The notes beneath the pieces are model-generated. The model was not told the DNA's origin, did not search any database, and worked only from the letters and a program-made list of their open reading frames with translations. From a virus, in the IMG/VR virus record IMGVR_UViG_3300036760_000399, positions 1 through 39,532 of that record: a stretch of DNA of 39,532 nucleotides; one strand, 5' to 3'. Positions 5,321 to 20,949 of the stretch are shown here, piece by piece. Both the position numbers and the translations under genes were made by a program. The stretch's first letter is position 1. Each line of letters starts with the position of its first letter.

Positions 5321-6649
5321 CTACGTCACTGCTTCGAGTTCCATGATCCTCTGCCCGATCCACCGCATGACCGGCACGGCCATCGAGTTGCCCAGGGCCT
5401 TGTAGCGCGGTCCGTCCTTCGCCGGCTTTCCACGGAAGTCGATCAGCGTGTAGTCGTCGGGAAAGCCTTGCAGCCGCTCGCATTCGCGCGGCGTGAGTCG
5501 GCGGACGATGAACGGCACGCCGCCGGTCTCGTTGCCGTTGCCCGCCCGCAGATGCCCGGCCGGCCCCACGTTGCTCCCTTGGCACTGGAAGGCGATGATT
5601 TGCTGCGTCGGGTCCGTGTTGCAGTTCAACGCGGCCGTGCGGTCGCCTTGCTCCATGACGCCGCAGTTGCCGCTTGTGCGATAGGCAATCGCTGGCGGGT
5701 GCTGCTGGCCGGCCAACGGATGGCATGGATCGCCAGATCGCGGCTGAGAGTAGTTTCCGCGGCTTGTGATCTGTGTCGTGTCGAACGGCACCGGAACAAG
5801 CGGCGTCCCTCGGCCGGTGCCATCCTCACTTGCGTCGAAGCCATCGGCGCGGAGGGCGTGGGCGACAAGCAGCGACTCCCTCGCTTCGTTGTCGGCGTAT
5901 TGATTCTGCGTCAGAGGACAGGTGATGTAGTCCTCTCCGTTGGGGTCGTATCTTCCGTGGCTGCCGCAAGAGCCTCTCGCAAGGCTGTGGGCAACTCCCG
6001 ACCCCGTCTGTCGGCTCGGCACAGGATGCCCGCACAGGCTTTGGCGCTCAAGAAGTACCGCTGCGGCACGTCGCCAGTCTCCAAGATAGCCGACAACGAA
6101 CACGCGCTCGCGTCGCTGGGCCAAGTCGAAGTATTGAGCGTCAAGACTTCGGTAGACCCACCCATACCCGAGTTGCCCCAGGGCTTCCAAGAAGCATCCA
6201 AAATCACTTGCTTCTGTAGATTCCCATCGCTGTCCCGGCTCCAAATCACTCGGCGGCTCTGGGCCGGTCCACGAGGAACGGACGCCAGGGACGTTTTCCC
6301 AAAGCACCCAACGGGGCCGAATTGCGCCAACAAGCTGAAGAAATCGGAGGGCCAAGTTGCCGCGCGGATCATCCAGTCCCTTTCGGAGTCCCGCGACGCT
6401 GAAGGATTGACAGGGGGTTCCGCCGACAAGAAGGTCAATTGCTCCGAGCGTGCCAAGGTCGGCCTCCGTGATTTTCGTCATGTCTCCTACGTTTCGCAGC
6501 CCGAAGCGACGCTCGACAACCGCGATCGGAAACGGCTCTATTTCGGAGACCCACCGGCACGTCCAGCCCAGCGGCGCCCACGCCACGTGAACGGCCCCGA
6601 TGCCGTCACAAACGCTGGCGTATGCTATCCTCCGTGCTGTGGCCGTCAT
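5321..6649 (-). CDS. C5 cytosine-specific DNA methyltransferase
   Basis: A full set of C5-methylase motifs is present in order: SAM-binding ASVCDGIGAVHVAW (about residues 11-24), the catalytic PCQSF loop with Cys80 in GGTPCQSFSVAG, ENVPGV (118-123), QRRERVFVVG (178-187), then a long variable target-recognition region, RRLTPRECERLQGFPDDY (about 380-397) and YKALGNSMAV near the C-terminus. It transfers a methyl group from SAM to cytosine. No partner endonuclease lies beside it, so it is probably an orphan phage enzyme that protects against host restriction. The 442-aa length is typical. AAGGAA precedes the start. Confidence 0.93.
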   Translation of the reverse strand: MTATARRIAYASVCDGIGAVHVAWAPLGWTCRWVSEIEPFPIAVVERRFGLRNVGDMTKITEADLGTLGAIDLLVGGTPCQSFSVAGLRKGLDDPRGNLALRFLQLVGAIRPRWVLWENVPGVRSSWTGPEPPSDLEPGQRWESTEASDFGCFLEALGQLGYGWVYRSLDAQYFDLAQRRERVFVVGYLGDWRRAAAVLLERQSLCGHPVPSRQTGSGVAHSLARGSCGSHGRYDPNGEDYITCPLTQNQYADNEARESLLVAHALRADGFDASEDGTGRGTPLVPVPFDTTQITSRGNYSQPRSGDPCHPLAGQQHPPAIAYRTSGNCGVMEQGDRTAALNCNTDPTQQIIAFQCQGSNVGPAGHLRAGNGNETGGVPFIVRRLTPRECERLQGFPDDYTLIDFRGKPAKDGPRYKALGNSMAVPVMRWIGQRIMELEAVT

Positions 6650-7911: not shown

Positions 7912-7960
7912 GATTATGGAGTATTCTCTATTACTGTCAAGCCCAGTCTGAAAAGAATTA

Positions 7961-7984
7961 CGGAATTATGCCTTTGACAAAGCA
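7961..7984 (+). repeat. Left terminal inverted repeat of the insertion element
   Basis: 24 bp, the exact reverse complement of 11951-11974. Preceded by the left target-duplication copy AAGAATTA. Confidence 0.85.
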
Positions 7985-8000
7985 GTAGCCAATAGGGGGA

Positions 8001-8042
8001 TATTGCGGTGTTATTGACAACCGCAATAGTTTATGGTACGAT
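8001..8042 (+). promoter_or_regulatory. Promoter and operator of the HTH gene
   Basis: TTGACA (8014-8019), 17 bases, TACGAT (8037-8042) is a good sigma-70-type promoter. The predicted start of transcription coincides with the ATG at 8049, and no ribosome-binding site is present, so a leaderless mRNA is expected. An inverted repeat TATTGCGGT (8001-8009) / ACCGCAATA (8020-8028) spans the -35 box, and TATTG-7-CAATA (8012-8028) repeats at the transposase promoter. Confidence 0.65.
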
Positions 8043-8048
8043 TCGTGC

Positions 8049-8255
8049 ATGGCCCACAAACCGCCCCCAGTGTACATGACGCTGACCGACGCTGCCACGC
8101 GCCTTGGCGTCAAGCGGCAGCGCGTTTCCGTTCTGGTCAAGGAAGGCAGGATCAAGGCGAAGAGAGTTGCGGGCCAGCCGTTCATTTCCGACCGCGAGTT
8201 GGACCGTTTTGCCGCAATCCCACGGAAGGGCGGTCGGCCATCATCGAAACAGTAA
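8049..8255 (+). CDS. Excisionase/MerR-type helix-turn-helix protein of the insertion element
   Basis: The 68-aa protein contains MTLTDAATRLGVKRQRVSVL, then VKEGRIKAKRVAGQPFI, then ISDRELDRFA. This is the HTH_17 winged-helix pattern of excisionases and small MerR-like regulators. It probably binds the inverted repeats overlapping its own promoter and that of the transposase, acting as a controller of transposition and of the coupled R-M gene. The mRNA is probably leaderless. Controller genes ahead of R-M genes are common; here it stands ahead of a transposase-R-M pair. The fold is clear; the role is inference. Confidence 0.75.
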   Translation: MAHKPPPVYMTLTDAATRLGVKRQRVSVLVKEGRIKAKRVAGQPFISDRELDRFAAIPRKGGRPSSKQ

Positions 8256-8305
8256 TACCCCTCTTCGGAAGCATTTTGGCAAACTCCCGATTCGATGCCT
8301 CGAAA

Positions 8306-8337
8306 CTATTGACAGACGCAATAGAAAAGAGTAGAAT
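8306..8337 (+). promoter_or_regulatory. Promoter and operator of the transposase/R-M operon
   Basis: TTGACA (8309-8314), 17 bases, TAGAAT (8332-8337), a near-consensus sigma-70-type promoter. CTATTG (8306-8311) and CAATAG (8319-8324), 7 bases apart, overlap the -35 box with the same geometry as in the HTH promoter. Confidence 0.65.
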
Positions 8338-8365
8338 AGAGGCAGACAAAGGAAAGGGAATCACG

Positions 8366-9337
8366 ATGAAGTACACGCCTCCGAAGTTTACAAAACTCTC
8401 CGATATGGCCGCGATCGACGTGGGCCGCTTGACAGAAAACGAAGCCCGCGCCATCCTGGAGGCCATCCGCTGGCCCAATGGTCCGGTATGCCCGCATTGC
8501 GGAGGATCAGCAGTGACCCGGATTCAAGCCAAGTCAAAGAATGTACGCGACGGCGTTATCCAGTGCAACGGCTGCCGGGGGCAATTCACCGTCACCGTCG
8601 GCACCGTTATGGAGCGTTCCCACATTACCTTGCGGCAGTGGGTTCAAGCCTTCCATTCAATATGCTCGCACAAGAAAGGCGTGTCGGCCCTCCAATTGCA
8701 GCGCAACCTTGGCCTTCACACATACCGGGCCGCGTGGTTTCTCGCTCACCGTATCCGTCTTGCTATGAAACAAGACCCGCTGGCCAGCAAACTGGGCGGA
8801 ATAGTGGAAGTTGACGAAACCTACGTCGGCGGCAAGCCACGCAAGGGAAAGAAGGACGCTGATGGCAATCCAATCGTCAACAAGCGGGGGCGGGGCACTA
8901 AGAAGACGCCAGTGGTTGCCCTAGTCGAGCGTGACGGCAGAATCCGAACGCGGGTTGTGGAACACGTCAACGCCGACAACCTCAAGACGGCCATCCGGGA
9001 TAATGTCAACCAGCAGGCCGCAATTCAGACCGACGAATTGAATCTCTACAAGGGCATTGGCCAAGAGTTTGCGGGTGGCCACCAAACTGTCAATCACAGT
9101 CAGGGCGAGTACGCCCGTGGTAATGTCAACACCAATACGGCGGAGTCTTTTTTCGCCTTGCTGAAAAGGGGCGTTCACGGTACGTTCCATCATATTTCCA
9201 AGACGCACCTTCCCCGCTACTGCGACGAGTTCTCTTTCCGGTGGGATGAGCGGAAGGTGACGGATGGCACGCGAACCGTGGAAGCTATCCGTGGCGCGGC
9301 AGGGAAGCGGCTCATCTACAAGGAGGCGGTGGCATAA
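8366..9337 (+). CDS. IS1595-family (ISXO2-like) DDE transposase
   Basis: 323 aa. N-terminal zinc ribbon CPHCGG..CNGCRGQF (Cys 42, 45, 67, 70), then the ISXO2-like DDE domain: VEVDETYVGG (Asp150), QTDELNLYKGIG (Asp223) and NTAESFFALLKRGVHGTFHH (Glu260), the usual catalytic triad and C-terminal signature of the family. It catalyses cut-and-paste or copy-type movement of the element via its terminal repeats. AAGGAAAGGGA precedes the ATG at 8366. The stop overlaps the next start as TAATG, so the R-M protein is translationally coupled to the transposase. All catalytic residues are present, so it may be active. Confidence 0.93.
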   Translation: MKYTPPKFTKLSDMAAIDVGRLTENEARAILEAIRWPNGPVCPHCGGSAVTRIQAKSKNVRDGVIQCNGCRGQFTVTVGTVMERSHITLRQWVQAFHSICSHKKGVSALQLQRNLGLHTYRAAWFLAHRIRLAMKQDPLASKLGGIVEVDETYVGGKPRKGKKDADGNPIVNKRGRGTKKTPVVALVERDGRIRTRVVEHVNADNLKTAIRDNVNQQAAIQTDELNLYKGIGQEFAGGHQTVNHSQGEYARGNVNTNTAESFFALLKRGVHGTFHHISKTHLPRYCDEFSFRWDERKVTDGTRTVEAIRGAAGKRLIYKEAVA

Positions 9338-11784
9338 TGGCAAAGAAAACTGTTGCAACATCCACCGTGCCAGAAACCGAAGTGGAAGCCTACGGTTTTA
9401 TCCGTCAGCAACTTCACGATCTTGGATGGTCGGTCAAGAATCCAAACCTCAACTCAGGCGGACAAGTCTGGACCCAAAATCAGTGTCTCGGGTATTTGCC
9501 AATCAAGGAAGCGTTTGTGGCAATGCGCCCAGAGAATGTTGTTAAGGTCCGTGAAAATTGCTTATGGATCATCGAAGCAAAGGCATCCCGTAAACATTTA
9601 GCAAAAGCAGTGGAGGAAGCGCAAGAGGATTACGCCAAGAAGATAAATGACAAGCCCGGCACGACAAAGGCTCTGTTGGCAACCGGAGTGGCCGGAACAG
9701 AAGAGTTAGGCTACCTGATTCGCACAACCATCCGTATTGATGGTATATGGCACGAGGTAACGATCAATGGGCAGGTAGCAACCGGCTTGCTTTCACCGCA
9801 GCAAGCCATGACACTGACGGACCAAGGTATATCCGATGTTCACGAGTACGCCCCTCCTCAGCGTCTCTTCCTGAATGCGGCCGAAAGAATCAACGAGACG
9901 TTACACATCGGAGGGATAAATAAAAACGATCGGGCCAAGACGATGGCAGCGCTTTTGCTTTCCGTCATAGACGAACCCCCCAATTTGGACACTAAACTAT
10001 CGGTTCTCATTGCGGAGATTAACGCCAGAAGCGAGGCGGTACTCAGACAACACGGCAAGCCCGACTTTGCCCCGTTTGTTAAAATCCTTCCTCCGACGAA
10101 CACAACGAATCATGTCAAGTTTAAGGCAGCCCTTGTGCGGACAATTCAGGAACTTCACAATCTGAATATACGCTCCGCAATGAACTCAAGTACGGATGTC
10201 CTTGGGCAGTTTTACGAGGTATTTCTAAAGTATGGGAATGGAGCAAAGGAAATTGGAATCGTTCTTACCCCCCGCCACATTACCCGATTTGGCGTGGAGG
10301 CCATTGGTGTATCAAGCGATGATATTGTTCTCGACCCTGCCTGCGGCACGGGCGGATTCTTAGTTGCCGCATTTGACCACGTACAGCGTAACAGCACTCC
10401 GCAACAACGCGAGCGATTCAAGAAGTACAACATTTTTGGAATCGAGCAGGAATCAGCGGTCGCTGCGCTGGCCATTGTCAACATGATCTTTCGAGGCGAC
10501 GGAAAGAACAACATTGTCGAAGGAAATGCCTTTAGTACCTATCTAACAAAGCGTTCAGTAAACGGCCACGCTACGGCTGCCTACGTCGCAACACCTCCTG
10601 AGTCAGGCAACGAGCCGGTCACGCGGGTCCTAATGAATCCACCTTTTGCCCTGAAGGGCAGTACAGACAAGGAATACCGCTTTGTCTCACAGGCCCTCTC
10701 TACGATGGCCGACGGTAAGATTTTCTTCTGTCTGCTACCCCTGAACACGCTTTTTGGATCGCATGATGAAAAGGTGTGGCGACGTGACGAATTGCTCGCC
10801 AAACACACCTTGCTCGCCGTTATCACGCTTCCTGAGAAGTTATTCTATCCTGCGGCCCTGAAACAAGTAGCGGCTGTGATTATCAAGAAGGGAGTGCCTC
10901 ACCCGCCAACGCAATCTGTGTTTTGGGCAATGATTGCAAAAGACGGACACATACTTTCTAAGTCCAAACGTCTCTTGGCGTCTGAATTCTCGCCTCCCCG
11001 TAACGAGCCAGATCAATTGCCAGAGGTGCTTCCGTACCTGCAAAACTTCATTGCGCACCCGAAAACAACATCCGCTAACCAGCCTAAGTTCTTTAAGACT
11101 GCCCCGATTGACTTTGCTGATCCACTGCTAGAGTTACTGCCTGAAGCATATCTTGACGCCGACCCTTTATCCACAGTTGCCCTTAGACAGGCTGTAGAAG
11201 AGACGACGCGGGAGACGGTCGTAACGCTGGTGCGATTTGCTGAAAACGCGGAATCGCCATCTAATAGTACAACCACGATGCCGAAGTTTAGCCGCTTTAT
11301 GTTGAGCGATATTTTTGACTTGGAAGCGGGTGCCTTTCATTCTACCGGTAGCATGGTCGCCGGACAGACTCCGATCATCTCTTGCGGCGAACTTAATAAC
11401 GGCGTATGCGGATTCTTTGATGTTTCTGACAAAAAGGTCTACAGCCACAAGCTCACGATTGCCTGCGATGGTAGCACTTTGTCAGCAAAGTATCATCCGT
11501 ACCAATTCTCTGCATACGACAATGTTGCTGTGTGTTTCCCTAAGAAGAAAATGAGGATCACTACCCTGCTATTTATCCAGATTATGCTGGGCCGAGAAAA
11601 ATGGCGGTTTTCATACTACCGAAAGTGCTACCTTGACAAATTAAGCCGGGTCATGGTTCCACTTCCCGCCAAAGGAGGCAAGATTGATGAGGATGCTATA
11701 GAAACGATAATGTCTGCGTCCTCTCAATGGGAATATCTTTCTAGTCAGCTTCACCGCGCAAGTTATGCGGATGATCTAAAGTGA
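9337..11784 (+). CDS. Single-chain restriction-modification protein (type IIG-like R-M-S fusion, N6-adenine)
   Basis: 815 aa with three parts. An N-terminal nuclease-like domain has MRPENVVKV...LWIIEAKAS, a PD-(D/E)xK core (Glu80, Lys82) with Glu66 in place of the usual Asp. The middle is an HsdM-like N6-adenine methyltransferase with VLDPACGTGGF (about 331-341) and NPPF (434-437). The C-terminal 150 residues resemble a specificity-subunit target-recognition domain (ACDGSTLSAKYHPY, then AYDNVAVCFP). One chain could thus cut, methylate and recognise DNA. It is fused by start/stop overlap to the transposase gene. Its base composition is less GC-rich than the phage genes. If the Asp-to-Glu change kills cleavage, it would be a methylase only. 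Confidence 0.8.
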   Translation: MAKKTVATSTVPETEVEAYGFIRQQLHDLGWSVKNPNLNSGGQVWTQNQCLGYLPIKEAFVAMRPENVVKVRENCLWIIEAKASRKHLAKAVEEAQEDYAKKINDKPGTTKALLATGVAGTEELGYLIRTTIRIDGIWHEVTINGQVATGLLSPQQAMTLTDQGISDVHEYAPPQRLFLNAAERINETLHIGGINKNDRAKTMAALLLSVIDEPPNLDTKLSVLIAEINARSEAVLRQHGKPDFAPFVKILPPTNTTNHVKFKAALVRTIQELHNLNIRSAMNSSTDVLGQFYEVFLKYGNGAKEIGIVLTPRHITRFGVEAIGVSSDDIVLDPACGTGGFLVAAFDHVQRNSTPQQRERFKKYNIFGIEQESAVAALAIVNMIFRGDGKNNIVEGNAFSTYLTKRSVNGHATAAYVATPPESGNEPVTRVLMNPPFALKGSTDKEYRFVSQALSTMADGKIFFCLLPLNTLFGSHDEKVWRRDELLAKHTLLAVITLPEKLFYPAALKQVAAVIIKKGVPHPPTQSVFWAMIAKDGHILSKSKRLLASEFSPPRNEPDQLPEVLPYLQNFIAHPKTTSANQPKFFKTAPIDFADPLLELLPEAYLDADPLSTVALRQAVEETTRETVVTLVRFAENAESPSNSTTTMPKFSRFMLSDIFDLEAGAFHSTGSMVAGQTPIISCGELNNGVCGFFDVSDKKVYSHKLTIACDGSTLSAKYHPYQFSAYDNVAVCFPKKKMRITTLLFIQIMLGREKWRFSYYRKCYLDKLSRVMVPLPAKGGKIDEDAIETIMSASSQWEYLSSQLHRASYADDLK

Positions 11785-11796
11785 GAAGAATACGTG

Positions 11797-11943
11797 ATGA
11801 GTAATATCGCGCCTCACAAACACAAAACTCCCCGCCTTTCCCTTTACCCACTCAAGGCCGAAGAGGCCCTTGCCGCGTTCATGCGGGCCGATCCGAAAAA
11901 GGTGGAGGCGGGAATGCAAAAGCTACGCCGAAAGAAGGGTTAG
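11797..11943 (+). CDS. 48-aa passenger protein at the end of the insertion element
   Basis: MSNIAPHKHKTPRLSLYPLK, then AEEALAAFMRADPKKVEAG and a basic end QKLRRKKG. Small proteins with an RLSLYPL-(8-10 helix)-EEAL pattern are familiar to me beside mobile and toxin-antitoxin genes, but I cannot name the family. It ends 8 bases before the right terminal repeat. The ribosome-binding site is weak (AGAAGAA). It lies 12 bases after the R-M gene, so it probably shares its transcript and might modulate the nuclease. Confidence 0.55.
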   Translation: MSNIAPHKHKTPRLSLYPLKAEEALAAFMRADPKKVEAGMQKLRRKKG

Positions 11944-11950
11944 GCGGCCT

Positions 11951-11974
11951 TGCTTTGTCAAAGGCATAATTCCG
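11951..11974 (-). repeat. Right terminal inverted repeat of the insertion element
   Basis: 24 bp, exact reverse complement of 7961-7984, followed by AAGAATTT, the second copy of the target duplication. Confidence 0.85.
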
Positions 11975-11983
11975 AAGAATTTT

Positions 11984-12223
11984 TCAAGGAACCAAGACGG
12001 CCGATGGGGAAATCAGGAGAGAAGGCGTTGTATCTAACGCCTCTGCCAGGGCGGCGAGGGTGGTGACATTCGGAGAGATTCGACCGCGTTCCAGGTCAGA
12101 AACGTAACTTTGCGGGACGTGGAGAGCGTCTGCGAGCCTCGTTTGACTGATTCCGAGGGCGTTGCGGCGAGTGCGCATATTGGCACGAAACACGTTGGCG
12201 AGTTCTTGGGCTTGCATTTCCAT
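11984..12223 (-). CDS. XRE-family (Cro/CI-type) transcriptional repressor
   Basis: The 79-aa protein is essentially one HTH_XRE domain: RTRRNALGISQTRLADALHV, then PQSYVSDLERGRISPNVTTL and AALAEALDTTPSLL. Such small repressors bind operator dyads and control lysogeny or R-M genes. The insertion element begins one base after its target duplication, 9 bases beyond the stop codon, so the gene is intact. It is transcribed away from the accessory genes on its right. Two starts are possible: ATG at 12221-12223, which coincides with the predicted transcript start (leaderless), or ATG at 12215-12217, which has GGAGGG at ideal distance if a longer mRNA exists. Confidence 0.85.
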   Translation of the reverse strand: MEMQAQELANVFRANMRTRRNALGISQTRLADALHVPQSYVSDLERGRISPNVTTLAALAEALDTTPSLLISPSAVLVP

Positions 12224-12270: not shown

Positions 12271-12672
12271 CTACTCTGGTGTCTTGAACCCAGATGTTGA
12301 TCGGCCTTCGGGCGTGATTTGAACGCTTACCGGCCCATCGGTCTGCCGCGACCATTCCAGCGGTTTCAAGAAACCCCTTTGAATCAGACCTGAAACAACA
12401 TGGTCCCTACAGTCGAGTTCGATGGTGTTTCGTCCGGCGGCGTCGAACTTCCGAAGCACGGCCAACTCTGGAAGATCAAGTTTGTAGTCCTTCTGTGGAT
12501 GCTGATCCCGTTGGCGATAGTCGGCGAGTTGCTTGAGCAGGTCGGCGCATTGCTCCTTGCAGCGGCCAAGTTCATCGACCGTTTCTGTATGTTTCTTCTC
12601 GGCATCCGCTATCCTCTCCCGAAGGAGAGCGTTAAGGGGAAGCCCGGCAAGAATATCAGTGAGAAATCCCAT
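12271..12672 (-). CDS. Coiled-coil and winged-helix-like protein
   Basis: The 133-aa protein has an N-terminal amphipathic segment MGFLTDILAGLPLNALLRER, a coiled-coil (about residues 20-55) with Cys residues, and a C-terminal domain (LAVLRKFDAAGRNTIELDCR...GLIQRGFLKPLEW) with the shape of a winged helix, as in small wHTH proteins common next to prophage regulators. GGAGG precedes the start. It lies 20 bases after the neighbouring 107-aa gene and is probably co-transcribed. Function unknown. Confidence 0.6.
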   Translation of the reverse strand: MGFLTDILAGLPLNALLRERIADAEKKHTETVDELGRCKEQCADLLKQLADYRQRDQHPQKDYKLDLPELAVLRKFDAAGRNTIELDCRDHVVSGLIQRGFLKPLEWSRQTDGPVSVQITPEGRSTSGFKTPE

Positions 12673-12692
12673 TTTTCCAGCCCTCCAGTCCC

Positions 12693-13016
12693 TTAATCTC
12701 TAACTGCCAGCAACAATTCACCCGCCACATGGTTTGCAAAATCAGCGCGTGCGCTACTGTCGGCATGGACGTGACCGTTCGCGGCACACCAAGCCAAGAA
12801 ACTCTCTGGGTGGAGTTCCGCACGGATGACGCGGAGCCCGCGGTTTTGTGCGTCCCTCTCGGCCCGCTCGGCAATTGCGAGCCATTCCTCGAAAGTCTCC
12901 GGCAGTTCGTCCGCGTCGTCGAAGATTTTCAGGCATCGCGGATACGCATCCCGGCTATACCAGACAATGCCAGTGGCGGAGATCGGGATGGCGGAATTCA
13001 AGCGGCCATGTGACAT
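12693..13016 (-). CDS. Conserved hypothetical protein
   Basis: 107 aa; the pattern IVWYSRDAYPRCLKIFDDAD, ELPETFEEWLAIAERAER, LRVIRAELHPESFLAWC is that of a widespread small protein of unknown function seen in proteobacteria and their prophages. AAGGTG precedes the start. It is divergent from the next plus-strand gene with only 27 bases between the two ATGs. Confidence 0.65.
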   Translation of the reverse strand: MSHGRLNSAIPISATGIVWYSRDAYPRCLKIFDDADELPETFEEWLAIAERAERDAQNRGLRVIRAELHPESFLAWCAANGHVHADSSARADFANHVAGELLLAVRD

Positions 13017-13043
13017 TTTTCACCTTTTCCTGAGGTATTTCAG

Positions 13044-13325
13044 ATGCACGACTTTTCCATTCTCAGCGAGGCTCTCCAAAAGGCCGTCGAATTGCACCGG
13101 GCCGTTCCGCCCGAAAGTCTCAGCGATCTTATGGAGACGGCAAAGGGGTTTGCCGACTTCCTTGATCCGGCCAACGCCCCGACGTCTTCCGGGAAACCGC
13201 CTGTTTCCCGCAGTGCGACTTCAAGCCGCCCGGCTCCTTCTCGGCGAGTTCGAGCAAAACGCCGTGCAACGTCCGCAGGTACTCGGGTTTCAGCCAAGTC
13301 GGCGGCATCGAGGCGGCGAGATTGA
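13044..13325 (+). CDS. Hypothetical protein, convergent with an overlapping minus-strand gene
   Basis: The 93-aa product starts MHDFSILSEALQKAVELHRA and continues with a believable helical segment (LSDLMETAKGFADFLDPAN); the last 45 residues are an Arg/Ser-rich tail that reads like the antisense of the opposite gene. GAGGT lies 8 bases upstream. The 3' part overlaps the minus-strand gene at 13129-13401 by 197 bases. The N-terminal half is the better supported part. Confidence 0.4.
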   Translation: MHDFSILSEALQKAVELHRAVPPESLSDLMETAKGFADFLDPANAPTSSGKPPVSRSATSSRPAPSRRVRAKRRATSAGTRVSAKSAASRRRD

Positions 13326-13401
13326 CCAGGGAGTCGAGGACTGGGTTTCCGGTATCCTGGCAACCCAAGAACTTGCATTTACATTCGCGTGTTTCGGCCA
13401 T
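13129..13401 (-). CDS. Small Cys-containing hypothetical protein
   Basis: The 90-aa product begins MAETRECKCKFLGCQDTGN and is followed by helical VLDSLVNLAASMPPTWLKPE, YLRTLHGVLLELAEKE. GGGGA precedes the start by 9 bases. The C-terminal third overlaps the convergent plus-strand gene. The Cys cluster at the N-terminus (CKCKFLGC) could bind metal. No family recognised. Confidence 0.45.
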   Translation of the reverse strand: MAETRECKCKFLGCQDTGNPVLDSLVNLAASMPPTWLKPEYLRTLHGVLLELAEKEPGGLKSHCGKQAVSRKTSGRWPDQGSRQTPLPSP

Positions 13402-13423
13402 TTCACGTTCCCCTGGAGTTACA

Positions 13424-13768
13424 ATGACCACGCTCTACAAATTGACGGACGATGAAAAGCAAGCGGTCGACGCAATCCGCGAGACGGCCGCGGTTGCTGA
13501 GACTGGTCGTTCTTTGAAGACACCTCTTCCATCGGAGCCCGGCTTCTATCCCTGTTTTCTCCGTTACGTCAAATGCACTCCGTCGAATCCGAACCCGCCG
13601 GCGCCCCCGGCGGTCCTCGAAGTTTTCGGAATAACCCCTTATTTAAGTGCTTTTATCTATGCAGGCGGCGAGTCCAGGGAGGTTGATCCCAACAGTTCAT
13701 CCGAACTCCTATGGATCGGCGATCGCCTGGCATTTCCCCCTCGATCAGGTGCCGAAGACAGGACTTGA
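13424..13768 (+). CDS. Protein with a tape-measure-like N-terminus
   Basis: The first 18 residues (MTTLYKLTDDEKQAVDAI..) match the start of the tape-measure protein in this window (YKLTAEEKQAIDAIR), and the DNA match is close (26 of 29 bases over the core). After residue 25 the two differ; the rest (114 aa in total) is Pro-rich and unrecognised, and its last 19 bases overlap the tRNA-Leu gene on the other strand. GGAG precedes the start. It is probably a duplicated fragment that gained a new tail. Confidence 0.5.
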   Translation: MTTLYKLTDDEKQAVDAIRETAAVAETGRSLKTPLPSEPGFYPCFLRYVKCTPSNPNPPAPPAVLEVFGITPYLSAFIYAGGESREVDPNSSSELLWIGDRLAFPPRSGAEDRT

Positions 13769-13834
13769 ACCTGCACTCCCTTGACGGGAACCAGGTCCTG
13801 AACCTGGCGCGTCTGCCAATTCCGCCACTTCGGC
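13750..13834 (-). tRNA. tRNA-Leu (anticodon CAG)
   Basis: Acceptor GCCGAAG / CTTCGGC, D-arm GCGGAATTGGCAGACGC, anticodon arm CCAGG-TTCAGGA-CCTGG (anticodon CAG), long class II variable arm (CCC..GGG), T-arm GCAGG-TTCAAGT-CCTGT, discriminator A. The 3' CCA is not fully encoded (ACC then T). It may be a phage tRNA or a host-derived attachment site. Confidence 0.93.
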
Positions 13835-13879
13835 AATTACTTACTTTCCGCCTATTCATCCTCTCTTGCCTTGTTTACG

Positions 13880-13960
13880 ACTCACAGAGTCCTGAACCTA
13901 GTTTGCCTAATTTACCACCATTGTGGCCTATTTTGGCTCACTAGGTTTAGAACCTAGCGT
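13880..13960 (-). other. Decayed tRNA-Leu-like copies
   Basis: Two stretches next to tRNA-Leu resemble its 5' half. At 13889-13928 the leftward strand shares AGGTTCAGGAC and a D-arm-like TGGTGGTAAATTAGGCA. At 13941-13957 it forms a perfect 5-bp/7-base arm CTAGG-TTCTAAA-CCTAG. Neither folds into a full cloverleaf by eye. If the latter is an anticodon arm its anticodon would be CTA (reads UAG). Confidence 0.35.
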
Positions 13961-14040
13961 GCGTCACCCCCAAGGCATTTTCTGGGAAATGTCACATTGG
14001 GGGACTTGCTTTTCAGGAGGCGGCGCGGGAGGGTAAAAGG

Positions 14041-14418
14041 ATGGAAGGTTTCATTGCTCTACTCTGGCTCGGGTCCATCGTCGCGGGGGCCGTCGCAGGC
14101 AGCGGCAGGGGCGCTGTCGTGCCCGGAGGGCTCCTCGGGCTATTCCTCGGGCCTCTTGGCGTCATTGCCGCCTTGGGCCTCGACGAGAGGCCCCAGTGCC
14201 CTCGCTGCGTCGGACGCTTGGATGGGCACGGTAGCGTCTGTCAGCACTGCGGTGCCAAATTGAAATGGGGCAAGGGGCAGTTGTCCTCATTTGTCGATAA
14301 CCAGGTCGTGACATTGGACGAGGACGCCGCCCTGCCCGCGAGCGAAGCACCCAAGCCGCCACCGGAGAAACAGGCAGCCGTTCCATCAAAGGCGAAGGTG
14401 ACTGGTGGCTGGGGCTAG
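14041..14418 (+). CDS. Membrane-anchored zinc-ribbon protein
   Basis: The 125-aa protein has two hydrophobic segments (about residues 4-20 and 25-47, Gly-rich) followed by a zinc ribbon CPRC-x(10)-CQHC (Cys 53, 56, 67, 70) and a Pro/Ala-rich tail. This is the layout of small bacterial zinc-ribbon membrane proteins of unknown function. GGGAGGG precedes the start by 7 bases. It converges with the leftward structural module; the 274 bases between (14419-14692) hold only a short GC hairpin (14581-14602) and no gene I can support. Confidence 0.6.
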   Translation: MEGFIALLWLGSIVAGAVAGSGRGAVVPGGLLGLFLGPLGVIAALGLDERPQCPRCVGRLDGHGSVCQHCGAKLKWGKGQLSSFVDNQVVTLDEDAALPASEAPKPPPEKQAAVPSKAKVTGGWG

Positions 14419-14692
14419 TGAACCGCTCGGCCGGGCACGCTGAATCTGACGATGGCCGCGGCTAACGCCGTTTTCGGCGAGGGAGGCCCGTACCGCTGAA
14501 GTTGGCGTGAGAATCCGCGATCGTGCATCGTCAAGCATGGCGAGGTTGCCGGCGGCATCGCCAGATCATGCGAGCGTAGACCACCGCCAGAACCGGCGGG
14601 CGGTGATGGCCACCATCGACGCTGCCGGCGGTACAAGCAGCTTTAGCGGTAGCACCCGGGCGGCTCACTGCTCGTCGGGACAGGCCCAACTC

Positions 14693-15115
14693 CTAATCCC
14701 TCGTCCCGGCCGGCCAATAGCCGCATTCAAGACGAACATCTGCCAGTCTGACGGCGAACAGATGCGGCGTCGAGCCACAGCAACCGCACCACTGGCGACA
14801 ACCGTAGGATTCCCAATTGCCGCAACGGTTGGACCGGCAAATCGCCAACACCCGCTCTATCTCGACAGCCGGTCTGGTCGCCTTGCCATTGAGGATCAGA
14901 GTCTCCAGCTTGACGAGATAGGGCGGATCGGAAAAAGCAGGGGCACGTGGAGAGTGGAAGGTGGGGAGCGGCACAGACCGTGAGCCGGCGACTTCTCTTG
15001 GTTCACCGCACTCGCGTGCGGGTGGAATGGGGAATCTGACCGCGCTGTAACTGGCCGTGCAATCGACGTTCTGACACTTCCACCGATCGCCGTCACGTTG
15101 GAAATTGCAGCGCAT
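14693..15115 (-). CDS. Cysteine-rich hypothetical protein, last gene of the structural module
   Basis: 140 aa with two Cys-rich blocks. The N-terminal one is CNFQRDGDRWKCQNVDC, then PPARECG; the C-terminal one is AICRSNRCGNWESYGCRQWC, then GCCG. They look like paired metal-binding or disulphide-knotted modules. The start overlaps the stop of the upstream 675-aa gene as TGATG, so it is coupled to it and probably belongs to the tail tip. No family recognised. Confidence 0.55.
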   Translation of the reverse strand: MRCNFQRDGDRWKCQNVDCTASYSAVRFPIPPARECGEPREVAGSRSVPLPTFHSPRAPAFSDPPYLVKLETLILNGKATRPAVEIERVLAICRSNRCGNWESYGCRQWCGCCGSTPHLFAVRLADVRLECGYWPAGTRD

Positions 15116-17142
15116 CAGTCGTCTTCCACCAGCGAAATGTGGCAGGTGCTGCCGGATTGGTCCGGGTCCATAGGATAGGAATTGTAAAACGGCGGGATAG
15201 TCTGCGCCGAAAAACAGTAGGGGATGTCATCGTCCGGCGGCGGAAACGGGCCATCGTAGCCCTTGTAGAAAATCAGAGTGTAGGGATCGTATGTGCCGCT
15301 CATAGTGCCACCTGGGGATTGCTTCCAGAGGTAGACGGTCGCCTGCCAGTTGAACAGGTACATCCACACCGTTAGGCTTGTGCCGCCGCCCAAGTCCTCG
15401 GAGTAGGACCACAATGAGCCGGCGGCGCTAAGGCGTTGTAGCCGCCGGACGATGAAATCACCGTTAAGGTTCGTGTCGGCCGTGAAGCCGCGAACCGACA
15501 CCAGGTACTCTTCCGGCTCGGCGTCCTCAAAGGTGAGCGCTCCGCAGAATTGGTCGATCGGCGGGGGCTTGGCGTCATCGAACTCGGCCGAGACCGCGGC
15601 GGTCATCTCGTGGGTGTGGCTGCCAAATTGAGGATCGGGCGTCAGGGTAAGATCGGTCAGGTCGCGCAGGTCCGCCTTGTCGAGCCCCAGATCGGTGACC
15701 CAGCGTCCGTTGATTCCGGCGGCTGCCGACGTGTAAAGTTCCAGCAGCAGTTGGCAGCGGCTGCTGGTGTAGTTAAGCCAGACCCCGTACTGCGCACTGA
15801 CAAACGCCGGCGCGTCAACGCCCGTCGCATTCGCAGGGCCGGACTCTTGGAGTCCCCACGAGCATCCGCTGTCATGCAGTAGCAGATGTTCGCGGTTGAT
15901 GAGTTGCTGCAACTCGGCCGAACCGCTGTAACCACCCAAGGTGAGACGAAGGTATCGCGGCATGTCGTCGCGCAAGACGGAACTGTAAAGCCGGGTGGCG
16001 GCGGTGCAGTCGTCCTGTTCGATTCGGGTCACGGAGAAGGCGCCGAAGCAGAGGTCCTCGCCCGCACAGTCTCCGCTTAGGGCGATTTCGCCCTCGACGA
16101 GGTCGTTGGCATCAAGAACGGCGAGCCGTTTGGCGACCGCTATCGTGCTGACGTGGCTGGGATAACCGACGGTCACGTTGATCGGGTCGCCGTCGGTTTC
16201 GTACCATACCGACACGTTCAGCGATACGCTCGGCCGGCCGGATGAAAAATCGAAATTGAGCGACCAGGCGATGTCCTCGGCGATCGTGCCATCCGGGCCG
16301 GTGAACCGCACACGCCCCAATTCTTCCTCGTTGACCGTGCCGAAGACGAACTCCACGGCGTAATCCTTGGAAAAGTGGATTCTATATGTCTGACCGTGCA
16401 GCGGGCGGACGCTTATCAAAATCTGCTGACTTGGCGGCAGCAACGTCGGGCCGAGCGTAATTTTCGGGTCATCGCCCGATCCCCATAGCCAGAAGGCCGG
16501 TGCCGCGGAATTCTCGTCGCGTCGAATCTGCCAGTCGCCAGAGGTGAGCAACCAAGGCTCTCCGGGGTCCGCCTCGTTCGGATAGACCGAGATCGAAGGC
16601 ATGGGCAGGATCGTCGCCGTGACATCGTCGTCCACGTCCGGCAGCGGATCGCCTTCGCCGCCCACGATCCGCAAGGCGTGGCCATAGTAGAGTTCGCTGG
16701 AAATCTGGCTTCGCCGAACACCCAACCGCATCTGTTGCCGCGATCCCCCGGACCACTGGAGCATTACTCTCCGCCCCGCCTGGCCGAGGAAGTACCTCAT
16801 AGTCGTATTACCGCCGAGGAGAAAGCGACCATCGGCGTCGGATGCCCTTGCCGTCATCGTCCCGGTATCGAAAAACTGGCCCGACAACGGGTCTCCGGCG
16901 CCGCCTTGCAGGACGACTGTCTCGCCATCCACCGATGCGACGGTAACGTTCTTCCGGTATCTCGCATAACCATCCTGGTCGCCGGTGAACTGAAGGGAGA
17001 CGATGTCGCCGGCGGCGAGTTGGTGGACGCCTAAGACGGTGACCGTTCCACCGTTTGGCGAATCGGCCAACAGGACTCCTTGAACCGGACGACCGAAGGA
17101 ATCGGAGAAGAACGCACAGGGGCAACAAGGTGGACGAGACAT
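15115..17142 (-). CDS. Large tail-tip or receptor-binding-type protein
   Basis: 675 aa. It begins MSRPPCCPCAFFSDSFGRPV and is then almost entirely beta-rich with Gly, Asp and aromatic residues and many isolated Cys. Segments such as IRVGG/LTLGGYSGSAELQ and repeated short W/Y-rich strands suggest a multi-domain adhesin. The position at the distal end of the tail genes fits a tip or receptor-binding role, which is inference. The Met at 17140-17142 was chosen because the open frame upstream overlaps the previous gene; the ribosome-binding site (GAGGG) is rather far. Confidence 0.5.
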   Translation of the reverse strand: MSRPPCCPCAFFSDSFGRPVQGVLLADSPNGGTVTVLGVHQLAAGDIVSLQFTGDQDGYARYRKNVTVASVDGETVVLQGGAGDPLSGQFFDTGTMTARASDADGRFLLGGNTTMRYFLGQAGRRVMLQWSGGSRQQMRLGVRRSQISSELYYGHALRIVGGEGDPLPDVDDDVTATILPMPSISVYPNEADPGEPWLLTSGDWQIRRDENSAAPAFWLWGSGDDPKITLGPTLLPPSQQILISVRPLHGQTYRIHFSKDYAVEFVFGTVNEEELGRVRFTGPDGTIAEDIAWSLNFDFSSGRPSVSLNVSVWYETDGDPINVTVGYPSHVSTIAVAKRLAVLDANDLVEGEIALSGDCAGEDLCFGAFSVTRIEQDDCTAATRLYSSVLRDDMPRYLRLTLGGYSGSAELQQLINREHLLLHDSGCSWGLQESGPANATGVDAPAFVSAQYGVWLNYTSSRCQLLLELYTSAAAGINGRWVTDLGLDKADLRDLTDLTLTPDPQFGSHTHEMTAAVSAEFDDAKPPPIDQFCGALTFEDAEPEEYLVSVRGFTADTNLNGDFIVRRLQRLSAAGSLWSYSEDLGGGTSLTVWMYLFNWQATVYLWKQSPGGTMSGTYDPYTLIFYKGYDGPFPPPDDDIPYCFSAQTIPPFYNSYPMDPDQSGSTCHISLVEDD

Positions 17143-17155
17143 CGTTGGACGGCCC

Positions 17156-17467
17156 TCACGTGCCGCATTTCCAGTTGGTGACCCACCACTTATTGCTCGG
17201 AGTGTGCCAGTTGATTTCGACAGTGGCACCGTAAGCGAGGGATTGGCCAAATGGCAGCATGTAGACGTAAACATCGACGACCGTGTCGGTCGCCTGCATC
17301 TGGCCGTTCGAGTCCGGCCGCATGATAACCGCCGGCGCACGTCCGCCGGGACGGAGGGTATCCTGGAGCTGCGCGTACTCCCACGGCGACGTCGGCGGCG
17401 AGGGCATCCTCACCAGCTGTTGGCCGGCGGTGGTTGGAACCGACGGGGAATCCCAGTAGTACGACAT
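17156..17467 (-). CDS. Small tail-module protein
   Basis: 103 aa (MSYYWDSPSVPTTAGQQLVR...), beta-rich with a C-terminal W-x-x-x-x-W motif (NKWWVTNWKCGT). GAGGGA precedes the start, 3 bases after the upstream stop. It lies between the hub-like protein and the receptor-binding-type protein. No family recognised. Confidence 0.6.
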   Translation of the reverse strand: MSYYWDSPSVPTTAGQQLVRMPSPPTSPWEYAQLQDTLRPGGRAPAVIMRPDSNGQMQATDTVVDVYVYMLPFGQSLAYGATVEINWHTPSNKWWVTNWKCGT

Positions 17468-17470
17468 GAC

Positions 17471-19564
17471 CTATTCCCTCGCAAATCCCGTGCTGATGAC
17501 GGTTGTCGGATTGTCGCCGCCCATCCACCGGATGTCGGTGATCGGGGCCTCGATCGTCTGGGAATCGCCCCCCTCGTCGATCACCGTGAGAATCTGCCCG
17601 AGCAAGCCGCCCCACGGCAAAAGACCTCGGACCACGATCTGCGCCCTCGCCCGTTCCTGATAATGGCGGGCCAACGCGCCGGCCATTTTCGCCGAAAGCC
17701 GCGCCCAGTCGTTGCGGACGATCATCCCGTCGGTTCCTCCGGTGCCCACCGTCGGCGAGAGAACGGCCTGGCCGTTCTTGTCGATGTCCAAGAACGTGTC
17801 CGGGGCCAGCCACCAACATTGGCAGTCGGAAGCGTCGACCTCCAAAACGCCATCGGTCGGCGCGGCGTCTTGAATCTTCTGTTCGCAGTAGACGCGCTGG
17901 TCGGTGAAGTAGGCCAGCGTGACGATCATCTGCCAGTAACTCCACTCTGGCGTGTAATCGCTCGGGCCGCTGAAGTTGCCCTTGGCCACAAGATGATTCG
18001 GGTGGGCGTGCAAGAACACGCCGAGGGCGTCGGGAAGGGCTGAAAGCCCGATCTGGTTGGCGTCGGCCGGCGCCCACTTATCGTTGTCGGAGTCGTACAG
18101 CCATGCTTGCGGCAGCCGCAGCGTCGGCGTCAGGGTGGCCGGGTTGTTGTCGACGCAGGGTTTCTGCGAGTAATCGACCCCGGTTTCCAAGGGAATCCAC
18201 GGCAGCGTCGAGCGGGCGCGCTGTTGCAAAGGGCCATTGTCCGCCAGCGGTTGGCCTTGGCCGTTCCATTGCGGCGAATGCCAGATGTCGTTGCTCTTGA
18301 ACCAGTTCGGCGCGGCTCCGAACTTTCGATAGACGTCGCGGAACTTTTCCTGCTGCCGCGCCTCGTCATGGAGAAACGGAGCATCCGACGGCGTGCCGGT
18401 CCCGCCGTTGTATTCGTTCTGGTCTTTCGGAATCCACAGCGTGGCGATGCTTTGCAACTTGGGGTTGCCAGGCATCGGCTTGCCGTTGGGCAAGCCCGTG
18501 TTGCCGTGCAGCGAGCAACAGACGACGATGCGGCCGCCGAGCAGCCGGATCGTGCCGTAGCGTTGGACCGCGGTCTTTTCGACGCAGGTCTTGATCGAGT
18601 CCTTGGTCCGCGCGGCGTAGATTTTCACGGTGTCTGGGTTGCCAGGCAAGGATTGACCGCCCCAGCCGCAACTCTGCCGGGTCAAAACAAACACCCGGAC
18701 CTCGAAGCCATCGCCGGTCGAGACGATTTTGTAGTCGAGCCCGTATTCCGGCCGGATCAAGCTGCGGAGGATGTGCTCGACGTTCTGCGTCACGCCGAAT
18801 TGGATCGGGTCGGTGAAGTTGCTCAACACGTCGCACTGCCCGCCCATCTTCCAGGATGGCCCGCCCCGATAACTTTCGTCGACGAACTTCGCCAAGATGT
18901 ACTTGGCGTATTGAAGGTAATCCCAGAGTTCGAAGTCGCCGTGGACGTACACACCGTCGTCGTCAGTCGATTGCGACCGGTTGCCGCTGCGGCTGCCGAG
19001 GGCTTTTGCGCCCGGCCCCGTACCCAGGGCCTTCCCCTTGGTTCCCGTCGGCTTGTCGTTGCGGCCATACTTTTCATTCAAGGGAGCGACCCAATCCAGC
19101 CTGACTGTCTGATTGCCGATCCGCCAGCAGGATCGGCCGACATCGATCCTTCGCAGGATGGCCAACGGCCCGAGGGCCTCGAAGCACTGCGCACCGGCCG
19201 GGATCAGGCCGTAGTCGGATTGCCTCGGTCCGAACACGGTGCGGACCTCGCCGACGATTCTGCCTATCCAGGCTTCCTGCATCCCCTGCTGGCCTGCCAG
19301 CATGACTCGCGCCCAGCAGCCGGCCAGCGACACCGGCGTCTTGCGGCCGTCCGTAGGCTCCCACGGGTGCTTGAGGACGCCGTAGCGATGCAGCAAGGCG
19401 CACGAGCCGGCGTCATGCGCCGCGGTGGAGGCACTCGCGCCCAAGAACTCCAGTTCGGGGACGAAGGTCCAATCGTCGGACCAATTCCGCTTCAACTGGA
19501 CGACTGCCGGGATCGCCCGCGAAGGGAAAGCCTGCGATGTCGGTCCGATAACGGTTGTGCCCAT
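17471..19564 (-). CDS. Putative tail hub / baseplate-type protein
   Basis: 697 aa. It follows the fibre-like genes. Its N-terminus has the beta-barrel-like look of hub proteins (VVQLKRNWSDDWTFVPELEF, GRKTPVSLAGCWARVMLAG). The C-terminal 100 residues (AKMAGALARHYQERARAQIVV, LLGQILTVIDEGGDSQTIEA, ISTGFARE) resemble the end of phage hub or late-control D type proteins. Gly/Lys-rich linker near residues 170-200. Assignment is by layout and position, not by a clear signature. Confidence 0.45.
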   Translation of the reverse strand: MGTTVIGPTSQAFPSRAIPAVVQLKRNWSDDWTFVPELEFLGASASTAAHDAGSCALLHRYGVLKHPWEPTDGRKTPVSLAGCWARVMLAGQQGMQEAWIGRIVGEVRTVFGPRQSDYGLIPAGAQCFEALGPLAILRRIDVGRSCWRIGNQTVRLDWVAPLNEKYGRNDKPTGTKGKALGTGPGAKALGSRSGNRSQSTDDDGVYVHGDFELWDYLQYAKYILAKFVDESYRGGPSWKMGGQCDVLSNFTDPIQFGVTQNVEHILRSLIRPEYGLDYKIVSTGDGFEVRVFVLTRQSCGWGGQSLPGNPDTVKIYAARTKDSIKTCVEKTAVQRYGTIRLLGGRIVVCCSLHGNTGLPNGKPMPGNPKLQSIATLWIPKDQNEYNGGTGTPSDAPFLHDEARQQEKFRDVYRKFGAAPNWFKSNDIWHSPQWNGQGQPLADNGPLQQRARSTLPWIPLETGVDYSQKPCVDNNPATLTPTLRLPQAWLYDSDNDKWAPADANQIGLSALPDALGVFLHAHPNHLVAKGNFSGPSDYTPEWSYWQMIVTLAYFTDQRVYCEQKIQDAAPTDGVLEVDASDCQCWWLAPDTFLDIDKNGQAVLSPTVGTGGTDGMIVRNDWARLSAKMAGALARHYQERARAQIVVRGLLPWGGLLGQILTVIDEGGDSQTIEAPITDIRWMGGDNPTTVISTGFARE

Positions 19565-19569
19565 AGTGT

Positions 19570-20949
19570 CTATCCCTCCTCGACGGGCAAGGGTCCGGCC
19601 CAGCGATCCGCCACGAGCGGCGCGGAGGGACTGCTGGCATCGACGAGGAACGACTGCACCGTGGACCCGCCCGAGTAGACCCAGTTGGGTTCCCCCTCCG
19701 TCCCGTCGTTGCGGCGGGTTTGCAGGCGGACCTTCACCGTCGCCCCGTCGGCGGCCGCCGGCAACTGGTAGGTCAAGATGGCCAGTCCCGACGCCGACAA
19801 CTCCGCAGTAAAGTCAGGATCGTCAACGGACGGATCAGAGCCATCGATGGTGTAGGCGATGGCCCATTCGCCGGCGCGGTTGCCGCCATCTTCGTAATAG
19901 ACGGCCGTTATCTGGACCACGCCTCCGCCGATGGCCGCCAACCGGCAGTTGAGCGGCGCCGCCGGCGGAGAGCCGACAACGCCGCCAGCGGCGACATCGA
20001 GCCGGACGTAGGTCTCGCCGGCCGGCCCCAACGGCAGGAACCCTGAATCCAAGACACCGTTGAAGTAGGACATCGACAGATACCAGGAGCCATCGGCAAA
20101 CGTGTCGGTGGGGACCGCCGGTAGGCTGGGGCTTGTGGCGAAGGGCGTCAGGCCCTCGGACGGCGCGCCCAGCCGAGATCGGTAGAAGCGATACTCGGCC
20201 GGATTGAATATCCGATAGAGGCCGCGGGCGTCGAGGTAGTAGCGGGTCAGAGGTGGAACCGTCTGGATTCCCGAACTGCCCTCGGCGGCACTGACGACGA
20301 TCGTGCGGGCCAATAGGAGCGACACGAGGACGTCCGGATCGGCCGTGACCGTCGAGCGGAGTTGACCCAATGGCCTGGCCGTGGAGCGATCCGTGGACGC
20401 CCCCTCGGCCTCGCTGACGATCGGCGTGCAGACGAGGCCCCACGGCCTCGTGGCCCGGCTGCCGGCCAGGCCCTCCTCGGTGCTGACGGCGACCGTGCGA
20501 GACATTGCGGACCCCGTAGCGCCCTCGGCGGTCGTGATGGCGGCCGCGTGTGGCGTGCCCCAGGCCCGCAGGATCGCGGCGGTCGTGGCCCCCTCGGCCG
20601 AAGTAATGACCACCGTCCGGGAGAAGGCTCGACCCGCTGCGCCCTCCGCCGCGCTCGTGCCGGCGGCGTGCAACTGGCCCCAAACCCTATTACTGGCCGA
20701 GGCCGCCGCCCCCTCGGCCGTGCTGACGGCCGCCAGGTGTGGCGTGCCCCAGGCCCGCAGGATGCTCGACGTGACCGCGGCCTCGATCGCCGCCATGATC
20801 GGCGTTCGCAATTGGCCCCAGGGGTTAGCGCTCAGCGCACCGACCGAGGCCTCGGCGCCGACGACGCCGCCCACGCGGACCTCGATCCAGGGCTTTGCGC
20901 CAGCAGCGCCTCCCATTCCCTCGGCCATCGTGGTGGCGTACGTGGTCAC
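19570..20949 (-). CDS. Repeat-containing tail appendage protein
   Basis: 459 aa from a GTG start with GAGGTG six bases upstream. The first 210 residues are about eight degenerate 22-25-residue units built on a STAEGA(A/T)xxAxxR(x)WGxx pattern, alternating WGTPHAAA and WGQLHAAG types. The rest is beta-rich (YYLDARGLYRIF, a YEDGGNRAGEWAIAYTIDGS fibronectin-like stretch). Such modular repeats occur in phage fibres and appendages. The repeats are well conserved as DNA (AGGCCCGC and GCCCC blocks), suggesting ongoing exchange. Confidence 0.5.
   Translation of the reverse strand: MTTYATTMAEGMGGAAGAKPWIEVRVGGVVGAEASVGALSANPWGQLRTPIMAAIEAAVTSSILRAWGTPHLAAVSTAEGAAASASNRVWGQLHAAGTSAAEGAAGRAFSRTVVITSAEGATTAAILRAWGTPHAAAITTAEGATGSAMSRTVAVSTEEGLAGSRATRPWGLVCTPIVSEAEGASTDRSTARPLGQLRSTVTADPDVLVSLLLARTIVVSAAEGSSGIQTVPPLTRYYLDARGLYRIFNPAEYRFYRSRLGAPSEGLTPFATSPSLPAVPTDTFADGSWYLSMSYFNGVLDSGFLPLGPAGETYVRLDVAAGGVVGSPPAAPLNCRLAAIGGGVVQITAVYYEDGGNRAGEWAIAYTIDGSDPSVDDPDFTAELSASGLAILTYQLPAAADGATVKVRLQTRRNDGTEGEPNWVYSGGSTVQSFLVDASSPSAPLVADRWAGPLPVEEG

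Follow-up and report, generated by a model that had tools for sequence, protein, structure and literature searches.

The question raised by this locus is whether a restriction–modification (R-M) gene can move inside a single insertion sequence (IS), behind that element's own transposase. R-M systems have long been suspected to move as selfish units, the usual evidence being indirect (IS-flanked loci, long target duplications). The locus is a 4,014-bp segment, positions 7961–11974, of a 39,532-bp virus contig (IMG/VR record IMGVR_UViG_3300036760_000399; the whole contig is called the window here), which has head-protease and portal genes of a phage and holds a single copy of the element. The segment is very probably a complete IS1595 unit transposon (a 'transporter IS') that belongs to a distinct group with constant ends, a constant transposase and a constant small protein, but with differing R-M genes. 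Its boundaries, family, cargo types, recurrence, insertion as a unit and constant small protein are supported by sequence, from which we also infer that the window element may be active at the present day.

The segment is bounded by a perfect pair of 24-bp terminal inverted repeats (IRs) at 7961–7984 (plus strand; CGGAATTATGCCTTTGACAAAGCA) and 11951–11974 (minus strand), and the ends of its relatives are of the same type. This pair was by far the longest exact IR flanking the window transposase, the runner-up being 12 bp. The IRs are flanked by 8-bp target-site duplications, AAGAATTA at 7953–7960 and AAGAATTT at 11975–11982, which match at seven of eight positions (random chance about 4e-4); the right copy stops one base before the stop codon of a phage repressor-like gene (11984–12223, minus strand), which is intact. 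Four genes, all on the plus strand, lie between the IRs and encode a helix–turn–helix (HTH) protein of family HTH_17 (8049–8255), an IS1595 transposase of 323 amino acids (aa; 8366–9337), an 815-aa single-chain R-M protein with an N6 methylase (9337–11784) and a 48-aa protein (11797–11943). The transposase stop codon (9335–9337) and the R-M start codon (9337) share one base within TAATG (9335–9339). A sequence-only reading of this stretch had proposed an IS1595-type unit carrying its own R-M gene, and had described the perfect repeats, the near-perfect duplication, the four genes and the TAATG overlap; all of these were found to be present, the first three genes being recognized by Pfam, NCBIfam and PADLOC and the unit itself being supported by its ends, duplication, transposase and relatives.

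Membership of the IS1595 family was supported by Pfam, NCBIfam and a phylogenetic tree. The transposase combines a Zn ribbon (PF12760, 2e-14) with an ISXO2-like DDE domain (DDE_Tnp_IS1595, PF12762, 1e-41) and matches NF033547 above cutoff (4e-61). Residues D150, D223 and E260, which from knowledge of the family we take to be the DDE catalytic residues, are invariant across the three transposases aligned, those of the window and of loci L006 and L007. The short terminal IRs and 8-bp duplication that characterize IS1595 elements are both found here, the duplication being exact in most relatives, and an 8-bp target duplication has been reported for the IS1016 group of this family (PMC10045372). 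As in a transporter IS, the R-M gene lies between the IRs, and R-M-free sisters have ends of the same type and 8-bp duplications.

Relatives of the transposase were found with 64–70 % identity in viral contigs and 58–68 % identity in bacterial metagenome-assembled genomes (MAGs), their hosts being phage contigs and MAGs titled planctomycete/Phycisphaerales, Zixiibacteriota, FCPU426, Armatimonadota, Acidobacteria, Nitrospirae and Syntrophaceae. In a maximum-likelihood tree, 21 transposases including that of the window formed one clade (support 99/96) apart from more distant IS1595 transposases; L032, whose frame-broken transposase was omitted from the tree, brings the group to 22 members. The end type common to these relatives is GGAATTATGC(A/C).TTG.CAAA.C(A). 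Exact 8-bp duplications flank most complete elements, for example ATAATCGT in L007, ATAATTTA in L018, AAAAATAT in L020, AATAATTA in L025 and AAAAGTAT in L030, and the 19 duplications compared are 84 % A+T. Genome surveys with the transposase (E <= 1e-120) gave one of 392, two of 297 and two of 198 genomes, the query genome itself being counted. Ends of the same type around a related transposase–R-M pair, which the sequence-only reading had proposed as a search in other genomes, were found in JAKPNC010000118.1 (L017, with its other end at L132), where the R-M gene is of the same kind and the duplications are AAATGGTA. Its remark that a phage location is unusual has been dropped, since members of the group were also found on three further phage-type contigs, L005, L006 and L007. 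Two pattern matches (L013 and L014) proved to have no element, and L012, L034 and L038 were set aside as more distant IS1595 elements with non-R-M content. One Phycisphaerales MAG (G005) has several cargo-free copies, on contigs C2, C6, C50 and C83 (L019, L021, L024 and L029), which suggests recent transposition.

In three relatives the site of insertion could be reconstructed. The R-M-carrying element of L020 (PLPI01000105.1, 4611–14896) lies inside hsdS of a resident type I R-M system, and in silico removal of the element together with one copy of the duplication restored a 401-aa HsdS frame between hsdM and hsdR. With L007 the same excision joined the flanks into a 160-aa frame, and with L022 into one of 237 aa of HNH type. 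Transposase, cargo and small protein are therefore inserted together, as a single unit.

R-M genes of seven kinds were located directly behind the transposase in 11 of the 22 members. The cargo is BsaXI/BcgI-like in the window and L017, HSDR_N plus N6_Mtase in L023, L025 and L027, of Eco57I type in L020 and L030 (with TaqI_C in L020), N6_N4_Mtase plus Mrr in L006, and an EcoRI-type methylase plus GmrSD/HNH in L007 and its copies L008 and L011, whilst a HindVP nuclease in L028 and a type ISP enzyme in L032 are each cut by the contig end. In an all-against-all comparison only the R-M proteins of L023 and L027 were closely alike (61 %); the other pairs were window/L017 (31 %), L020/L030 (26 %) and L025/L027 (26 %), and those of L006, L007, L028 and L032 had no match to any other R-M protein of the group. 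These identities are lower than those among the transposases of the window, L006 and L007 (approximately 65–71 % to each other). The overlap between the R-M start codon and the transposase stop codon is 4 nt in L006, L020, L025 and L030 and 1 nt in the window; in L007, L017 and L023 the R-M gene starts approximately 7–12 nt past the stop codon. Non-R-M cargo is rarer in the clade and occupies the same spot, being membrane-type proteins in L022 and L018 and a 136-aa open reading frame (ORF) in L026.

The 48-aa protein at the right end is basic, with a conserved core P-L-K-x-E-E-A-L-x-x-F-M, and has homologues at the right ends of the R-M-carrying relatives; across the group these proteins are approximately 40–57 aa, basic, and share the core K-P-[LI]-S-L-x-P-[LI]-K-x-E-x-A-L-x-x-F-M. 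Their gene is the last or nearly the last before the right end in each of the nine R-M carriers with an available right end, a count that includes L017 with L132 (AAATGGTA) and L023 with L131 (TTCAAATG), which are separate contigs paired by matching 8-bp duplications, and that excludes L028 and L032, whose right ends lie beyond the contig. Among 2.9 million viral contigs, a degenerate DNA pattern for the core matched in five, each time in an element of the group. AlphaFold predicted two helices (predicted local distance difference test, pLDDT, 79). The 48-aa protein had no match in Pfam, NCBIfam, PADLOC or PHROGs and none in plasmids, and the absence of small-protein homologues from 392 genomes is a weak negative, as the centre genome carries only members without that gene.

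Two functions may be considered for this protein. A role on the R-M side, as a control protein, inhibitor or antitoxin for the nuclease and not in transposition, would suit the position of its gene just behind the R-M gene (with a 4-nt overlap in L020, L025 and L030) and its absence from the seven simple ISs of the clade (L016, L019, L021, L024, L029, L031 and L033). However, the protein accompanies unrelated R-M folds, it is present in four members without an R-M gene (L015, where it directly follows the transposase, L018, L022 and L026), and weaker homologues occur near more distant IS1595 transposases, behind PIN-like or SEC-C-like genes in L035 (7022–9560) and L119 (1408–3300) and alone in L009 and L034, all of which makes an R-M role rather unlikely. 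Because it is found with unrelated R-M enzymes and with non-R-M cargo, the small protein is better explained as an accessory to the transposon, acting in transposition, end binding or regulation, than as the partner of one R-M system. Given the PIN-like and SEC-C-like cargo of L035 and L119, it may be older than the R-M habit.

In the 815-aa protein of the window, a nuclease (aa ~12–170), an N6 methylase (aa 285–535) and a recognition domain (aa ~650–794) are predicted in one chain, which is the arrangement of a type IIG enzyme. Pfam identified N6_Mtase (1e-30, aa 285–535) and, just under cutoff, Methylase_S (2e-4, aa 654–779), whilst PADLOC ranked type IIG first (4.5e-42) and gave Specificity_II at 9e-11. 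The methylase and recognition domains were assigned from sequence alone, and the structural model was used for residues up to 170; in the AlphaFold model the pLDDT was approximately 60–93 over most of residues 12–170. A plain Foldseek search with this model returned nothing significant, and a nuclease-domain profile run against Protein Data Bank sequences had no hit, so the nuclease match rests on a second look with VIA-align, in which the best match was the HsdR fragment 3h1t (Z 12.3, root-mean-square deviation 4.0, 124 residues aligned) and the second-best the type IIB enzyme BsaXI (8w2p, Z 7.8). On this sequence and model evidence, an HsdR/BsaXI-like nuclease is predicted to be joined to an N6 methylase and a single target-recognition domain. 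The protein resembles the BsaXI/BcgI-like type IIB and the type IIG enzymes in having an N-terminal nuclease fused to an N6 methylase, and its phage matches are annotated bcgIA/bcgIB, but it differs from the BsaXI/BcgI-like enzymes, which as type IIB enzymes have two recognition domains and cut on both sides of their site, in that its recognition domain is fused and there is only one.

The closest R-M homologue found (71 % over the methylase) is a BcgI-like gene pair in a phage contig (L004, 2746–5676), where it adjoins a baseplate-hub gene. Its reading frame is broken towards the N terminus, and a separate ORF has two recognition-domain matches. No transposase or ends were found at this locus. 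The R-M cargo therefore also exists outside the element; as the setting of this homologue is unrelated, the element is not refuted by it.

It could be argued that the nuclease of the window protein has decayed and that the protein serves the phage solely as an anti-restriction or regulatory methylase, since its motif reads PE...EAK in place of the usual PD...(D/E)xK, it has one recognition domain against two in L004, and the same phage has a separate C5 methylase. This is improbable, as P65-E66, E80 and K82 do not vary among three homologues with identities as low as 32 %, the nuclease domain is intact with a fold like those of HsdR and BsaXI, and nuclease domains are also present in other members of the group. 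That an ordinary IS1595 element merely captured a nearby R-M gene in this phage, the other cases being independent accidents, is quite improbable: passenger capture by IS1595 elements is known (tISCpe8, MTnSag1; PMC5704250) and R-M homologues do occur outside the element, as in L004, but within one clade 11 of 22 members have R-M genes, of seven kinds, in the same slot between transposase and small protein, and non-R-M cargo (L022, L018 and L026) is less frequent there.

The first gene of the window element encodes a 68-aa HTH_17/excisionase-like DNA-binding protein, a probable repressor (Pfam HTH_17, 8e-7), which also matches TIGR01764 (6.5e-6, below its cutoff) and a PHROG excisionase/regulator (1.4e-5). 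Sigma-70-like promoters were predicted for this gene (TTGACA-17-TACGAT, 8014–8042) and for the transposase (TTGACA-17-TAGAAT, 11/12, 8309–8337). An 18-bp putative operator on the plus strand overlies the −35 box of each, TATTGACAACCGCAATAG at 8012–8029 and TATTGACAGACGCAATAG at 8307–8324, and their pattern, TATTGACA(AC/GA)CGCAATAG, has only these two copies in the window (starting at 8012 and 8307) against 0.02 expected. Because near-identical sites overlie both −35 boxes, it is economical to suppose that the HTH protein probably represses its own promoter and that of the transposase and R-M genes.

Several observations weigh against the reading of the segment as one of a group of R-M-carrying transposons. 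The window duplication matches at seven of eight positions rather than eight, and L006 and L027 are without a clean duplication. Seven of the 22 members, five of them in one Phycisphaerales subclade, are simple ISs with neither an R-M gene nor the small protein, so that carriage of an R-M gene, though common, is not a requirement. L017, L023, L028 and L032 are cut by contig ends, and two of these were rejoined by matching duplications only. The HTH gene, correctly placed within the unit by the sequence-only reading, is not a core component of the group: this gene and its sites were seen in the window element alone, and the regulation is no group feature. The empty site with a single AAGAATTW, also suggested by that reading, was searched for and not found: viral contigs contained nothing that matched the joined flanks of the window element exactly, and a search with a neighbouring phage gene gave no relative. 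When positions 12,300–20,200 were compared with annotated phages in the same hunt, the tRNA-Leu stretch alone was covered among the matches listed.

IS1595 transporter ISs with passengers have been described, namely MTnSag1/tISSag10 and tISCpe8 (PMC5704250) and ISNha5, which carries a transcription regulator (PMC11891212). They resemble the window element in having an IS1595 transposase and passengers inside the terminal repeats, but their named passengers are resistance or regulator genes, whereas the present group has a varying R-M cassette and a conserved small right-end protein. IS220 carries a methyltransferase gene (PMC11891212), but its transposase belongs to another family (IS1380) and no cassette exchange is reported in that paper. 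At loci such as that of PaeR7I, R-M genes are flanked or moved by copies of IS1 or IS5 (PMC3031569); R-M mobility is IS-driven there too, but by separate IS copies or co-integration, whereas in the window one element encloses the R-M gene and supplies the transposase in front of it. Passenger-carrying IS1595 elements are thus already known, whilst an IS1595 group with differing R-M cassettes and a constant right-end protein is apparently new, no description having been found in the literature searched; Siguier et al. (2009) and Furuta et al. (2010) lie outside that literature and may hold one.

Gene order and the general biology of R-M systems suggest how the window element could work. Once it is established, the HTH protein would bind the two 18-bp sites and repress its own promoter and the transposase–R-M promoter. 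In a new cell this repression would be absent, and the transposase and R-M protein, co-translated, would be produced together. Methylation of the new host would be possible, as both activities are predicted to sit on one R-M chain or, in L007, the methylase is encoded by the first of the R-M genes. The R-M protein would then guard the genome of host or phage from unmodified DNA and make loss of the element costly, and the transposase would move the unit into AT-rich sites of phages and chromosomes. Cargo may change by exchange of cassettes. Only tentatively do we suggest that the group is a specialized carrier of exchangeable R-M systems, with a fixed frame, swapped R-M genes and a small protein with a real role in transposition or cassette exchange. 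A compact element with interchangeable R-M genes behind its own transposase offers a clean, testable case of R-M self-transposition, and it connects phages with chromosomes from distant phyla as routes along which defence genes travel. The member inside the resident hsdS of L020 represents a direct clash of incoming and resident R-M systems.

The C5-cytosine DNA methylase of the phage itself is encoded at 5321–6649 (minus strand), approximately 1.3 kb to the left of the element. Near its right end, 12271–12672 (minus strand) encodes a 133-aa protein with a weak match to SieB (superinfection exclusion; E 1e-4, under the Pfam cutoff). On the phage-type contig L005, five phage genes (at 2282, 3711, 4812, 5742 and 6216) end in S-S-S-G no more than seven residues from the stop codon, with differing codons, as might be expected if selection acted on a C-terminal peptide tag.

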